Of a DNA stretch of 64,000 nucleotides, positions 4,449-8,914 are shown piece after piece. The translations under genes and the position numbers were made by a program. Position 1 is the stretch's first letter. Each line of letters begins with the position of its first letter. The notes under the pieces are model-generated. The model worked only from the letters and a program-made list of their open reading frames with translations, was not told where the DNA came from and did not search any database. The DNA is taken from the NCBI RefSeq assembly GCF_018882405.1, contig NZ_JACVOO010000005.1:62001-126000 (forward strand), in the 5' to 3' direction. The DNA is from Polynucleobacter sp. 31A-FELB. GTDB taxonomy: Bacteria; Pseudomonadota; Gammaproteobacteria; Burkholderiales; Burkholderiaceae.

Positions 4449-5819
4449 ATGTTCGATAAGATTCTGATTGCCAATCGCGGAGAAATTGCTCTCCGTATCC
4501 AACGCGCATGTCGCGAGTTGGGAATTAAAACTGTAGTGGTCTATTCGACTGCAGACAAAGAAGCTAAATACGTGAAGCTTGCAGATGAAGCTGTTTGTAT
4601 TGGACCTGCTCCGTCACCACTCAGCTATCTCAATATGCCAGCCATTATTTCGGCGGCAGAAGTGACTGATGCTGAGGCGATCCATCCAGGCTATGGCTTT
4701 CTCTCTGAGAATGCTGACTTTGCTGAACGTGTTGAGAAATCAGGCTTTGCATTCATTGGCCCAACTGCCGCTTCAATTCGCCTGATGGGCGATAAGGTTT
4801 CGGCCAAGCGCGCCATGATTAAAGCGGGTGTTCCTTGCGTTCCTGGATCTGAAGGCGCATTGCCTGACAATCCAAAAGAAATTATTACTACAGCAAAGCG
4901 TGTTGGCTATCCAGTCATCATTAAAGCTGCTGGTGGCGGTGGTGGTCGCGGTATGCGCGTAGTGCATACCGAAGCCGCTCTTCTAAATGCAGTCAATATG
5001 ACCAAAGAAGAGGCTGGCCGCGCTTTTGGTAACCCAGAAGTCTATATGGAGAAGTTTTTAGAGAAACCTCGCCACGTAGAGATTCAAATTTTGGCCGATA
5101 CCCATGGCAATGCTATTTGGTTGGGCGAGCGTGATTGCTCAATGCAACGTCGCCACCAAAAAGTGATCGAAGAAGCTCCAGCACCAGGCATCGATCGTCG
5201 CTTGATTGCAAAGATTGGTGAGCGCTGTGCAGAAGCCTGTAGAAAAATTGGGTACCGTGGTGCTGGTACTTTCGAATTCTTGTACGAAGACGGGGAATTC
5301 TTCTTTATTGAAATGAATACCCGCGTTCAAGTAGAGCACCCAGTCACTGAAATGATTACTGGCGTTGATATCGTTCAGGAACAAATTCGTATTGCTGCAG
5401 GCTTAAAACTCAGTTATCGCCAGAAAGACATTGTTTTCCGTGGTCACGCCATTGAATGCCGTCTGAATGCGGAAGATCCCTTTAAGTTCACACCAAGCCC
5501 AGGCAAAATTGGTTCATTCCACATGCCAGGCGGTCCTGGCATTCGTGTTGACTCACATGCCTACAGTGGCTACGTTGTGCCATCCAATTACGATTCGATG
5601 ATCGGCAAGCTGATTTCTTACGGCAATACTCGCGAACAAGCGATTCGTCGCATGCAAATTGCGCTTTCTGAAATGGTGATTGACGGCATTACAACGAACG
5701 TACCTCTGCATCGTGAACTCATGCTCGACCCGAACTTCATGGAAGGCGGAACCAGTATTCACTATCTAGAGCATCGCCTCGAAGAGCAAGCCGCTAGTCG
5801 CGGCAACCCGAAGTCCTAG
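4449..5819 (+). CDS. accC: Biotin carboxylase subunit of acetyl-CoA carboxylase
   Basis: The 456-residue ATP-grasp enzyme begins [16 protein letters not shown]. It has the glycine-rich ATP loop GGGGRGMR, the [15 protein letters not shown] segment and [13 protein letters not shown] near the active site. It carboxylates biotin on AccB using bicarbonate and ATP. Length and motifs match the free-standing bacterial subunit, without fused biotinyl or carboxyltransferase domains. It is co-transcribed with accB; prmA follows after 27 nt. Confidence 0.97.
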
Positions 5820-5846
5820 GTCAATTGATGTCCGTTTGGAGTCAAC

Positions 5847-7394
5847 ATGTCCTATCGTGAACTCATTTTCACGGTACCAGCAGAAATTGCAGAGCCTTTG
5901 GGTGATGCATTGCTGGAAGTGGGCGCACTCTCCGTCACCGTTGAAGATGATGCTGCAGGTGGTTACGATGAAAATCCACTTTATGGCGAGCCAGGGCTTT
6001 CACCTGAAGTTCAAGCCTGGGATCGCTCTTCAGTAACTGCACTCTTTAATCCAGAGATTGATGACTCGGACGCAGTGAACTTTATCCCCGAGCTCCTCGC
6101 ATCTCTTAAGGAAGCAGGCTTCAATCTTCCAGCTCCGCAAGAAAAGATTGTTGAGGAACAAGACTGGGTTCGCTTAACGCAAAGTCAATTTGCCCCAATT
6201 CAAATTGGTGAACGTATTTGGGTAGTGCCTTCCTGGCATGAAGCACCTGCTGACCCGAACGCAATTTGCCTGGCGGTAGATCCAGGTCTCGCATTTGGTA
6301 CCGGCAGCCACCCTACCACCCATCTTTGCTTGCTTTGGCTTGAACAAAATACGCAACTTTCGAATCAAAGTTTGCTCGATTACGGTTGTGGATCTGGAAT
6401 TCTGGCTATTGCCGCCGCAAAACTGGGATGCATACCAGTTGTGGGGACTGATATTGATCCTCAAGCGATGGTTGCAGCTCGCAGCAATGCAGAAATCAAC
6501 AATACGACTATTCGCTTTGTTCTGCCCAATGAAAATGCGCCAGAACTCGCTGCAGAAACCAAATACGACATCGTGATGGCGAATATTTTGGCCAATCCAC
6601 TGCAAGTTTTAGCGCCTGCCTTAGTAAACAAGATGCGTCCAGGGGGAAAAATTGTTCTCTCAGGTGTTCTTGCTCGCCAAGCAGAGGAAGTCATTGCAAC
6701 TTATAGCCAGTGGTTAACTCTTTCCGTTTGGAAAGAAAGTGAAGGCTGGGTCTGTTTACATGGAACGCTACCTCCGCAAGGTGATAAAGCGAGCGTGAAC
6801 GTCAAAAACACAAACACTTCGGTGCCGGCTCAAAAAAAAAGTCCTAAATTAATTCTTCTTAGTCTTTTTTTCCTCCTGCTTATTATTTTTGGCGAGCATC
6901 TTTCTAGAAATTCCTTACTGCCAACACTAGCAACGCGCGTGGATGGCAGCTCTTCCGCGATTGCAACAAGTAGTTTTTCTCTTTTACAGAAGTTGGATGA
7001 GCAATTGTGTCGTGCACTAGGATGCGTAAATCGCTCTGTAAGCAATTTTGCGGCTTGGAAAATAACTTCGGTCACCCTTTCACCTGAAAACGCGCGAGAG
7101 GGCCTTAAAAACGTTTTAAATCAATCTGTACTGCAAGTTGAAATACAAAATCGTCTTGCAATACCCGTTTTATTCCCAAATTTAGAAATTTCTCTCACCG
7201 ATGCAGAGGAATCGGAGATTAAAACGATTCAGTTTTCTCCACAAGAATGGTTGCCAACTGCTTGGCAAGAGTCGCATCCGGATTTTTTGCGTCATGGCGC
7301 TCCTTCCGGTGAAATCTTTGCGTCCGCGTTACCGATTTCCCTCCCGCAAAATGCTGCTGGCTATCGCGTCAGAATTTTTTATCCTGAAAAATAG
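5847..7394 (+). CDS. prmA: Ribosomal protein L11 methyltransferase fused to a membrane-anchored DUF3426 domain
   Basis: Residues 1 to about 310 are a complete PrmA: MSYRELIFTVP start, FGTGSHPTT, the SAM-binding loop LDYGCGSGILAIAA and the NILANPL motif. PrmA trimethylates L11 in the cytoplasm. The frame then continues through a short polar linker (about 311-334) into one membrane segment (335-351, LILLSLFFLLLIIFG) and a DUF3426 region (about 395-505, with LCRALGCVNRSV and a beta-rich C-terminus), 515 residues in all. In related bacteria, as I recall, DUF3426 is a separate gene after prmA with an N-terminal MJ0042 zinc ribbon. No zinc ribbon is visible here. The junction holds an A9 tract (6832-6840) at residues 329-332. 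Confidence 0.85.
   Translation: MSYRELIFTVPAEIAEPLGDALLEVGALSVTVEDDAAGGYDENPLYGEPGLSPEVQAWDRSSVTALFNPEIDDSDAVNFIPELLASLKEAGFNLPAPQEKIVEEQDWVRLTQSQFAPIQIGERIWVVPSWHEAPADPNAICLAVDPGLAFGTGSHPTTHLCLLWLEQNTQLSNQSLLDYGCGSGILAIAAAKLGCIPVVGTDIDPQAMVAARSNAEINNTTIRFVLPNENAPELAAETKYDIVMANILANPLQVLAPALVNKMRPGGKIVLSGVLARQAEEVIATYSQWLTLSVWKESEGWVCLHGTLPPQGDKASVNVKNTNTSVPAQKKSPKLILLSLFFLLLIIFGEHLSRNSLLPTLATRVDGSSSAIATSSFSLLQKLDEQLCRALGCVNRSVSNFAAWKITSVTLSPENAREGLKNVLNQSVLQVEIQNRLAIPVLFPNLEISLTDAEESEIKTIQFSPQEWLPTAWQESHPDFLRHGAPSGEIFASALPISLPQNAAGYRVRIFYPEK
6832..6840 (+). other. A9 homopolymer at the PrmA/DUF3426 junction (possible slippage site)
   Basis: Codons run GCT CAA AAA AAA AGT CCT AAA. With one extra A the frame reads CAA AAA AAA AAG TCC TAA and stops. 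With one A fewer it reads CAA AAA AAA GTC CTA AAT TAA and stops. Either shift therefore gives a PrmA of normal length with no membrane part. A runs of nine or more are known sites of RNA polymerase slippage; use of this one is inferred. Confidence 0.5.
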
Positions 7395-7451
7395 ACTGCA
7401 AACTCTAATTCACACTTATTCCAATTGATTTTTATTAGAAAGTAATTATTT

Positions 7452-8411
7452 ATGGCCAGCTTGATCTGCGGTTCTATCGCTTACGACACCATCATGAACT
7501 TTGAAGGCAAATTTGCCGATCAAATCCTGCCAGAGCAGATTCACATTCTCAATGTCGCCTTCCTCGTACCTACAATGCGTCGCGAATTCGGTGGCTGTGC
7601 AGGCAATATTGCTTACAACCTAAGCCTACTTGGTGGAGACCCTATCATCATGGCAACGGTAGGTGGTGATGCAGCCCCATATCTTGATCGCCTCAAACAA
7701 CTCAAGATTGATGCAACGCACATCCGTCAAATTGAACAAGCATTCACTGCGCAGGCAATGATCACTACCGATCAAGCCAATAATCAAATTACCGCTTTTC
7801 ATCCTGGCGCAATGGGTGAATCTCACCTAAACCAAGTTTCTACTGTGGTTGCAGAACGTAGCAAGAATGGCAAAGGTGCAGCAAAATTCGGCATCGTTGC
7901 CCCAGATGGTCGCCAAGGAATGTGGGAGCACTGTCATCAACTGGCTGAAGCAGGCATTTCATTTGTATTTGATCCAGGCCAGGGCCTGCCCATGTTCAAT
8001 GGTCCAGAACTGCTAGAGCTCGTAGATATTGCAAGCTACCTAGCCGTAAATGACTATGAAGGCGAAATGCTTTCCCAAAGAACAGGTCTGAGCTTGGCAA
8101 AAGTAGCTGAAAGAGTGAAAGCGTTGATTGTTACCAAGGGTGCTGAAGGTGCAGATATCTACTTTGAAGGTAAATGCATCGCAATTCCACCGGTGCCAGC
8201 GGCTAAAGTAGTTGATCCTACTGGTTGCGGCGATGCATTCCGGGGTGGATTACTCTTTGGACTGGAAAATGGCATGGACTGGGAAACTACTGGCCGATTA
8301 GCCAGCTTAATGGGTTCAATCAAAATTACCCACCAGGGACCACAAAATCACCAAATGAGCAAAGATGAAATCGCCGCTCAATTCAAATCCGCGTTTGGAT
8401 TCGCCCTCTAA
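7452..8411 (+). CDS. PfkB-family sugar/nucleoside kinase (adenosine kinase-like)
   Basis: This 319-residue ribokinase-fold protein has the N-terminal Gly-rich signature EFGGCAGNIAYNLSLLGG and the C-terminal PfkB signature DPTGCGDAFRGG with catalytic Asp261. The family phosphorylates sugars or nucleosides with ATP. It resembles the carbohydrate kinases often annotated as adenosine kinase-like in Burkholderiales. The substrate cannot be fixed from sequence. It stands alone after the prmA fusion and ends at a terminator shared with the convergent H1-like gene. Confidence 0.8.
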   Translation: MASLICGSIAYDTIMNFEGKFADQILPEQIHILNVAFLVPTMRREFGGCAGNIAYNLSLLGGDPIIMATVGGDAAPYLDRLKQLKIDATHIRQIEQAFTAQAMITTDQANNQITAFHPGAMGESHLNQVSTVVAERSKNGKGAAKFGIVAPDGRQGMWEHCHQLAEAGISFVFDPGQGLPMFNGPELLELVDIASYLAVNDYEGEMLSQRTGLSLAKVAERVKALIVTKGAEGADIYFEGKCIAIPPVPAAKVVDPTGCGDAFRGGLLFGLENGMDWETTGRLASLMGSIKITHQGPQNHQMSKDEIAAQFKSAFGFAL

Positions 8412-8492: not shown

Positions 8493-8914
8493 TTATGGGC
8501 GTGTGCCAGTTGGGAAGGGCCAAGCAGCAGCAGGATTCAACGTTGTTGAAGCAGCAGCTTTTTTAGCCACGGGCTTTTTTACAGCCTTGCCCGCTTTCTT
8601 CGCAGCAGGCTTACTTACTTTTTTTTTGCTACTTTACGAGCTACTTTTTTAGCAGCAGGCTTCTTAGCAGCAGCTTTTTTAGCTACTTTCTTAGCAGCAG
8701 GCTTCTTAGCAGCAGCTTTTTTAGCTACTTTCTTAGCAGCAGGCTTCTTAGCAGCAGCTTTTTTAGCTACTTTCTTAGCAGCAGGCTTCTTAGCAGCTAC
8801 TTTTTTAGCAGCAGGCTTCTTCTTAGCTACTTTTTTAGCAGCAGGCTTCTTAGCAGCTACTTTTTTCTTAGCAGCTGGTTTCTTTGCAGCAACTTTTTTC
8901 TTGGCGATTGCCAT
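8493..8914 (-). CDS. Histone H1-like Lys/Ala-rich DNA-binding protein, frameshifted at an A9 run
   Basis: The frame opens at an ATG (8914) with ribosome-binding site AAGGAG, beginning MAIAKKKVAAKKPAAKK. It consists of KKPAAKK-type repeats, as in bacterial H1-like (Hc-like) nucleoid proteins that bind DNA through positive charge. As written it stops after 99 residues at 8615. At the A9 run (8619-8627) one additional A would continue the frame for 41 more residues with the same composition and the tail TTLNPAAAWPFPTGTRP, ending at 8493 just before the terminator. From memory, a LNPAAAWPFPTG tail is usual in betaproteobacterial homologues. The full gene (140 residues) is therefore annotated with a frameshift, due to sequence error, mutation or slippage. 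Confidence 0.85.
8645..8770 (-). repeat. Three 42-bp tandem repeats inside the H1-like gene
   Basis: The 14-residue unit VAKKAAAKKPAAKK is repeated three times (residues 49-90), with almost identical DNA. Shorter 10-residue units (VAAKKPAAKK and variants) precede it. Such repeats expand and contract easily, so length is likely to vary among strains. Confidence 0.9.

Follow-up and report, generated by a model that had tools for sequence, protein, structure and literature searches.

A run of nine adenines (A9) in a Polynucleobacter gene that joins PrmA, the methyltransferase of ribosomal protein L11, to a membrane helix and a DUF3426 domain is probably a programmed −1 slippage site with RNA polymerase as its agent, as judged from comparison of sequences across the genus. 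The gene belongs to Polynucleobacter sp. 31A-FELB and lies in the 64,000-nucleotide stretch analysed here (the window), together with a second A9 at the end of a histone H1-like gene. RNA polymerase would stutter at the first A9 and give some transcripts an additional A, so that unslipped mRNA would yield PrmA tethered to the membrane via its DUF3426 anchor, and slipped mRNA, ending two codons later, would yield soluble, anchorless PrmA. In the ancestor the two genes would have been separate, and the slip would have let the fusion keep free PrmA. We infer in this that slippage occurs, by what agent and at what rate, what the two products are used for, and in which order the events took place. 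The features concerned are the following.

5847 to 7394, + strand: PrmA-linker-transmembrane-DUF3426 fusion open reading frame (ORF), 515 aa in a single frame
5853 to 6767, + strand: PrmA (ribosomal protein L11 methyltransferase) domain, Pfam PF06325, modelled as helices and strands
6832 to 6840, + strand: candidate A9 slippage tract, CAA AAA AAA AGT, from sequence and genus conservation
6845 to 6847, + strand: TAA in the −1 frame, reached if one A is gained or the ribosome shifts by −1
6850 to 6852, + strand: TAA in the +1 frame, reached via loss of one A
6846 to 6929, + strand: predicted membrane helix, residues 334-361, hydrophobic LILLSLFFLLLIIFG; a helix in the model, its place in the membrane suggested by sequence
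6939 to 7373, + strand: DUF3426 domain, Pfam PF11906, modelled mostly as strands
8615 to 8914, − strand: histone H1-like gene, Ala/Lys/Pro-rich and named by composition, 99 aa, ending KKK-TAA
8619 to 8627, − strand: second A9 tract, GCA AAA AAA AAG TAA
8493 to 8618, − strand: −1-frame tail of the histone (VSKPAAKKAGKAVKKPVAKKAAASTTLNPAAAWPFPTGTRP), stop at 8493-8495; in other genera it shares its frame with a histone-like body

Both domains of the fusion are clear in Pfam searches, PrmA at residues 3-307 (PF06325; E 1.4e-84, 284.5 bits against a curated cut-off of 22) and DUF3426 at residues 365-509 (PF11906; E 8.1e-13, 49.1 bits against a curated cut-off of 27.7). In an AlphaFold2 model of the whole protein (mean pLDDT 76.8, pTM 0.43, from an alignment of 25 rows), residues 313-332 form a linker with pLDDT below 50, residues 334-361 a long helix, and the C-terminal part mostly strands; the model would thus place A9 in the low-confidence linker, directly N-terminal of the presumed membrane helix. 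The run, preceded by C and followed by GTCCTAAATTAA, is read in the zero frame as CAA AAA AAA AGT CCT. Gain of one A turns this into AAA AAG TCC TAA, with a stop two codons on and a predicted product of 333 aa and 35.8 kDa, and loss of one A into AAA GTC CTA AAT TAA, with a stop three codons on and a predicted product of 334 aa and 35.9 kDa; the unslipped fusion product has a computed mass of 55.9 kDa. An A9 at the fusion junction with nearby stops in both other frames, as reported in the initial annotation, is therefore confirmed from the sequence, and its long form of about 56 kDa stands. Its placing of the run exactly at the junction is right as regards the linker before the helix but not the end of the Pfam PrmA domain, which lies about 22 residues earlier, and its short form of 33 kDa, described as of normal length, comes out somewhat larger, at 333 aa as against 308-313 aa in 15 unfused PrmA proteins of the genus. 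Rfam gave no match within 5500-8000 at E up to 1, and no sigma-70 promoter-like site was found within 5700-7600.

Conservation was followed through 186 genomes of the genus, one per species, of which 185 had a match and 178 loci served for junction counts; left out were G052 (no match), G134, G140, G158, G168 and G173 (partial or weak matches), G049 (masked), and G153. With 15 separate genes (L164-L178) and the cut-off L160 set aside, 162 loci have the junction, including the contig-cut L158, L116, and the shortened L105. An A9 is found at the junction in 135 of them and an A10 in one (136/162 in total), and 133 of these 136 continue in one frame, eroded L128 and shortened L105 included, the other three being L161-L163. 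The 26 loci that have no run of nine comprise 24 fusions with a shorter run or none and two eroded genes, L129 and L130. Given the 24 fused relatives A9 is not universal, but their spread over several clades, with eight changes required on the tree, does not undo conservation elsewhere. All three codon phases are occupied by A9 (122, 7, and 6 loci), with position and phase shifted between clades, and in the main lineage the linker preceding the run is hypervariable while the run is kept. By frequency of the commonest codon, the three run codons of that lineage rank 4th, 9th, and 18th among 490 codon columns; many of the remaining highly ranked columns come from DUF3426, so strong codon conservation is not peculiar to the run. 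The fusion is broken in L128, L129, and L130, of which L129 has A8 at the run and one (G031) also lacks the histone run.

Within the main lineage, 109 of 116 aligned fusions have A9. The codon that follows the lysines (n = 116) is AGT in 85, AGA in 12, AGC in five, ACT in three, and ACG in one, so that the residue varies while its leading A is constant; codons starting with G belong to the clade with shortened runs. When codons were resampled from pooled usage with amino acids fixed, only 17.6 of the 109 A9 loci (about 16%) were expected to have A9, and a −1 stop within at most three codons, observed in 101/109, was expected in 34.6, counts that do not amount to independent draws because the groups were picked for A9 and the genomes are related. 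A +1 stop within at most four codons is present in 79/109 against 66.8 expected, an excess so weak that the stops speak for the −1 direction and not for both. Over all 133 fused A9/A10 loci, 114 have a −1 stop within at most three codons and 111 a +1 stop within at most six. Outside the main lineage, −1 stops number 6/6 against 3.4 expected in the phase-2 clade and 2/4 against 0.2 at phase-0 loci, with no enrichment in a deep clade (3/11 against 4.6; A9 in 11 against 5.7 expected). The changing of neighbouring residues around constant A's and the constant T of NNT AAR would not readily be explained by descent alone, and the run appears to be held by selection at the nucleotide level. As for the initial annotation, its idea of a programmed slip giving soluble and tethered PrmA gains strong comparative support from the run, the −1 stop, the frame-swapped sister species, and the second site described below; of the two out-of-frame stops to which it gave meaning, the −1 stop is enriched and the +1 stop weakly so; and the conservation in relatives that it proposed as a check holds for the 136 loci and fails in the 24 fusions, which partly bear out the refuting observation that it named.

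The sister species are three (L161, L162, and L163), which form one clade (support 94) and have the frames swapped. Their prmA reads CTC AAA AAA AAA CTC... and ends LKKKLLN-stop right after A9, giving 304 aa, while a −1 reading of the same A9 (CAA AAA AAA ACT) leads into their DUF3426, open for 200 codons. In these species plain PrmA would be the zero-frame product and the fusion the slip product. The three pairwise dN/dS values for their DUF3426 are 0.108, 0.132, and 0.204, with dS above 2, and hence saturated, in the first two. Between run and membrane helix there is no ATG, GTG, or TTG start common to all three; upstream of the run they share a TTG in the DUF3426 frame, its letters set by PrmA, which could in principle start DUF3426 separately. 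L150, the sister of this clade, has A10 there, and its two parts form an in-frame fusion. G049 had been considered as a further split gene and was dropped, as it is N-masked and its run context is that of L138, which is fused but has no A9. The 15 unfused PrmA proteins of the genus (L164-L178) are each accompanied by a separate DUF3426 gene, and PrmA from other genera (15 loci, L192-L206) has 298-300 aa. The gene downstream of prmA in L194 begins, by eye, with a CxxC zinc ribbon and ends DUF3426-like; among those listed, the unfused DUF3426 genes of the large-genome Polynucleobacter group start near the membrane helix and by eye have no CxxC ribbon.

The second A9, 1.8 kb downstream of the prmA run on the opposite strand and at the stop codon of the histone H1-like gene, is a candidate second slippage site, which would work in reverse: the zero frame stops, and a slip would add an ancestral tail. 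The −1-frame tail, with the peptide stretch LNPAAAWPFPTGTRP and the genus-conserved part LNPAAAWPFPTG, ends WPFPTGTRP-stop. Among 100 distinct tail-bearing histone sequences, 84 combine A9 with a −1-frame tail; the other 16 have A8 with a −1 tail (nine), A10 with a −1 tail (one), A8 with a +1 tail (two), or the tail in frame (L157 and L261), or were left unassigned by the script (L025 and L153). L260 is one long histone locus without the tail motif. The codon ahead of KKK (n = 93) is GCA in 74, GTA in 10, and GCT in nine, and GCA accounts for only 136 of 2,577 Ala codons elsewhere in the gene; this run, too, appears to be held by selection at the nucleotide level. The tail was matched in 65 of 80 genomes of the family, the other 15 giving no match. 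At 17 of 19 loci outside the genus it belongs to a single open frame 174 to 259 aa long, the remaining two, from small genomes, having 80 and 74 aa. In the large-genome Polynucleobacter group the histone run has ten A (A11 in G133), and 11 of 12 assessed loci read into the tail without a frame change, the twelfth ending at its contig. Both genes seem to keep such a run while the frame that is joined across it swaps between lineages. After the histone run, from 8618 downwards on the − strand, arms of the form GCGGGC..GCCCGC can be seen by eye, either a stimulator or a by-product of repeats; in L263 they read GCGAGC..GCTCGC, which amounts to one compensatory change.

Rarity adds less. A9 occurs six times on the two strands of the 2,236,093-base (2.24 Mb) genome, where scaling the shuffle expectation gives about 120; the window alone, with two against 3.46 in dinucleotide shuffles, does not reveal a deficit. 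Two of the six lie in genes (ORFs of at least 60 aa), namely the prmA fusion and the end of the histone-like gene, and four outside such ORFs, two of which adjoin terminator-like inverted repeats (by eye). Counts of overlapping A9 matches range from 3 to 49 per genome in 41 genomes of the genus, among them that of the window, and the run is rare in most. It is chiefly conservation that speaks against chance.

Whether the two runs travel together can be read in 124 genomes, of which 99 have at least nine A at both sites, 15 at neither, five at the histone alone, and five at prmA alone. Eight of the 15 form a run-less clade (L136, L138, L140, L142, L144-L146, and L159; its members L141 and L143 fall outside the count), and in the other seven (L084, L087, L089, L094, and L099-L101) both runs are shortened, to A6-A8 at prmA and A8 at the histone. 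Co-loss as proof of a shared agent was rejected, the independent-pairs test being not significant with too few pairs, and is thus only a hint. A slippage-controlled gene set in Polynucleobacter, in which the two genic A9 runs would set the doses of tethered and free PrmA and of tailed and tailless histone H1, is a doubtful proposal. Since both genes would rely on the slipperiness of one RNA polymerase, a change in it (through growth state, NTP pools, or polymerase evolution) would, if the proposal were true, shift ribosomal-protein methylation and nucleoid packing jointly, and one clade run-less at both sites and another shortened at both are in line with this.

The same two products would arise from a homogeneous mRNA by −1 programmed ribosomal frameshifting on A_AAA_AAA or A_AAA_AAG, both of them ribosomal slip sites, an explanation that we regard as unlikely and yet as the most serious competitor. 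The heptamer is in frame at the prmA and histone sites alike, it is the −1 stop that exceeds expectation, and A_AAA_AAG persists in the clade whose runs are shortened, with CAA AAA AAG at prmA in 5/7 and GCT AAA AAA AAG TAA at the histone. The 50 nt past the histone run fold at −11.6 to −18.5 kcal/mol, as single sequences without shuffle control, the arms seen by eye downstream of that run have their compensatory change in L263, and strong folds follow the prmA run in L024 and L016. Yet such a heptamer requires seven bases and nine are kept, the ninth A lying outside it as the first base of AGY, AGA, or ACN at prmA and the last of GCA or GTA at the histone. The prmA run is followed by no conserved fold (mean z −0.56 over 33 loci, L024 and L016 alone being below −4), consensus folding around it gave nothing, and an SD-like tetramer stands upstream in 1/135 loci; consensus folding after the histone run, on an automatic alignment, likewise gave no fold (z 0.42) and did not recover the arms seen by eye. 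In E. coli dnaX, −1 ribosomal frameshifting takes place on an A-rich heptamer with an SD-like element and a hairpin, and the short product ends just past the shift; heptamer and direction are alike at prmA, but SD-like element and hairpin are not conserved there. Bacterial −1 frameshift sites without stimulators do exist. Set against what defines each process, prmA has, for programmed transcriptional slippage, a coding-strand homopolymer of at least nine A and predicted defined products in alternative frames, and, for −1 frameshifting, an in-frame X_XXY_YYZ heptamer (A_AAA_AAA) but no conserved SD-like or hairpin stimulator. Transcriptional slippage of the Thermus dnaX type is more likely than ribosomal slippage because a conserved fold and SD are lacking, the ninth A outside the heptamer is kept, the run has the nine-A length of Baranov, and tssM1, discussed below, manages without such signals. 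According to the available part of Baranov et al. (PMC1088944), selection against slippage shows itself in many genomes at a run length of nine.

That the run is kept for its peptide, a Gln-Lys-Lys positive-inside anchor, or for a pause on lysine AAA codons before membrane insertion, with no second product, is quite improbable. The model does put QKK immediately before the helix, and lysine-rich ends ahead of a helix are common; against this, codon choice is far off what the peptide would lead one to expect (A9 in 109 against 17.6, −1 stop in 101 against 34.6), and neither the frame-swapped species nor a histone site at a stop codon is explained. Even less probable is a phase-variable (contingency) tract that would turn the fusion on and off through DNA replication slippage: a homopolymer in a coding region, and the A10 of L150 beside the A9 of its sisters, would suit it, but among one-frame genes with runs of at least nine 132/133 have exactly nine and one (L150) ten, all of them in frame, and an out-of-frame run of eight is met only in eroded L129, though such loci should often be caught out of frame. 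Between species, at one genome per species, no frequent length variants or out-of-frame alleles were seen. An ordinary gene fusion with the A run as a chance relic retained by descent can practically be dismissed, for although all genomes are of one genus and some clades lost the run and kept the fusion, synonymous sites elsewhere vary (the excess same-codon score averages 0.24 on a scale from 0, random, to 1, identical), the run stands at shifted positions and phases across clades, and A9 is rare in most of the 41 genomes.

Programmed transcriptional slippage is a known phenomenon, and the probable case here stands out for its history, a gene fusion followed across lineages by swapped frames, and for a second site that was not expected. 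In Thermus thermophilus dnaX, the source of tau and gamma, an A9 with a nearby stop leaves half of the product short, as far as the available text of PMC1088944 describes; the likeness to prmA lies in a sense-strand A9 at which the zero frame gives the long product and other lengths meet close stops and give the short one. The prmA fusion differs in that the predicted slip drops a membrane anchor, sister species have the frames swapped, and a second, histone-like site lies nearby. Citrobacter rodentium tssM1 (A11) is similar in that poly-A yields two length variants with no SD or hairpin nearby, going by the part of PMC4256274 that was at hand, and L161-L163 would resemble it in having a short zero-frame and a predicted long slip product; the same part of that paper names a single other tssM gene with such a run (PMC4256274), as against 136/162 prmA loci of the genus. 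For the anchor the parallel is Caulobacter ZitP, whose DUF3426, according to the accessible portion of PMC5182063, follows a single transmembrane helix, is predicted to be periplasmic, and is required for partner recruitment; there the N-terminus is a zinc ribbon, in whose place the prmA fusion has PrmA. This role of DUF3426 in ZitP would fit anchoring here, with the long product holding PrmA at the membrane and the short product freeing it, as we infer from the predicted layout. In the non-subscription literature no publication was found that pairs prmA with DUF3426 or an L11 methyltransferase with both frameshifting and slippage; among the matches listed there on slippage in Polynucleobacter, the one looked into was not relevant, and of those listed on histone H1-like frameshifting in Betaproteobacteria none was relevant by title. 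The main text of PMC3711429 contains neither "prmA" nor "L11", and "prmA" does not appear in the available part of PMC5009743.

If the slippage reading is true, programmed slippage would be near genus-wide in housekeeping genes that belong to neither mobile elements nor secretion systems, and a gene fusion could arise without loss of the unfused protein, the slip keeping both. Single-frame annotation would then miss the second product of each gene. Species with the frames swapped, the run intact, or the run lost offer a natural series that bears on the need for each product and on the link to polymerase slipperiness.

Farther along the fusion gene, codons 386-460 of DUF3426 (7002-7226, + strand, with a peak at 7080-7154) are strongly conserved at the synonymous level in 116 genomes, and this extends to rare ATA codons. 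An overlapping ORF behind it was rejected, as no alternative frame is open in all 116. The stretch also has weak consensus stems, with z −5.5 for codons 396-440 on the + strand and z −4.6 for codons 386-425 on the − strand.
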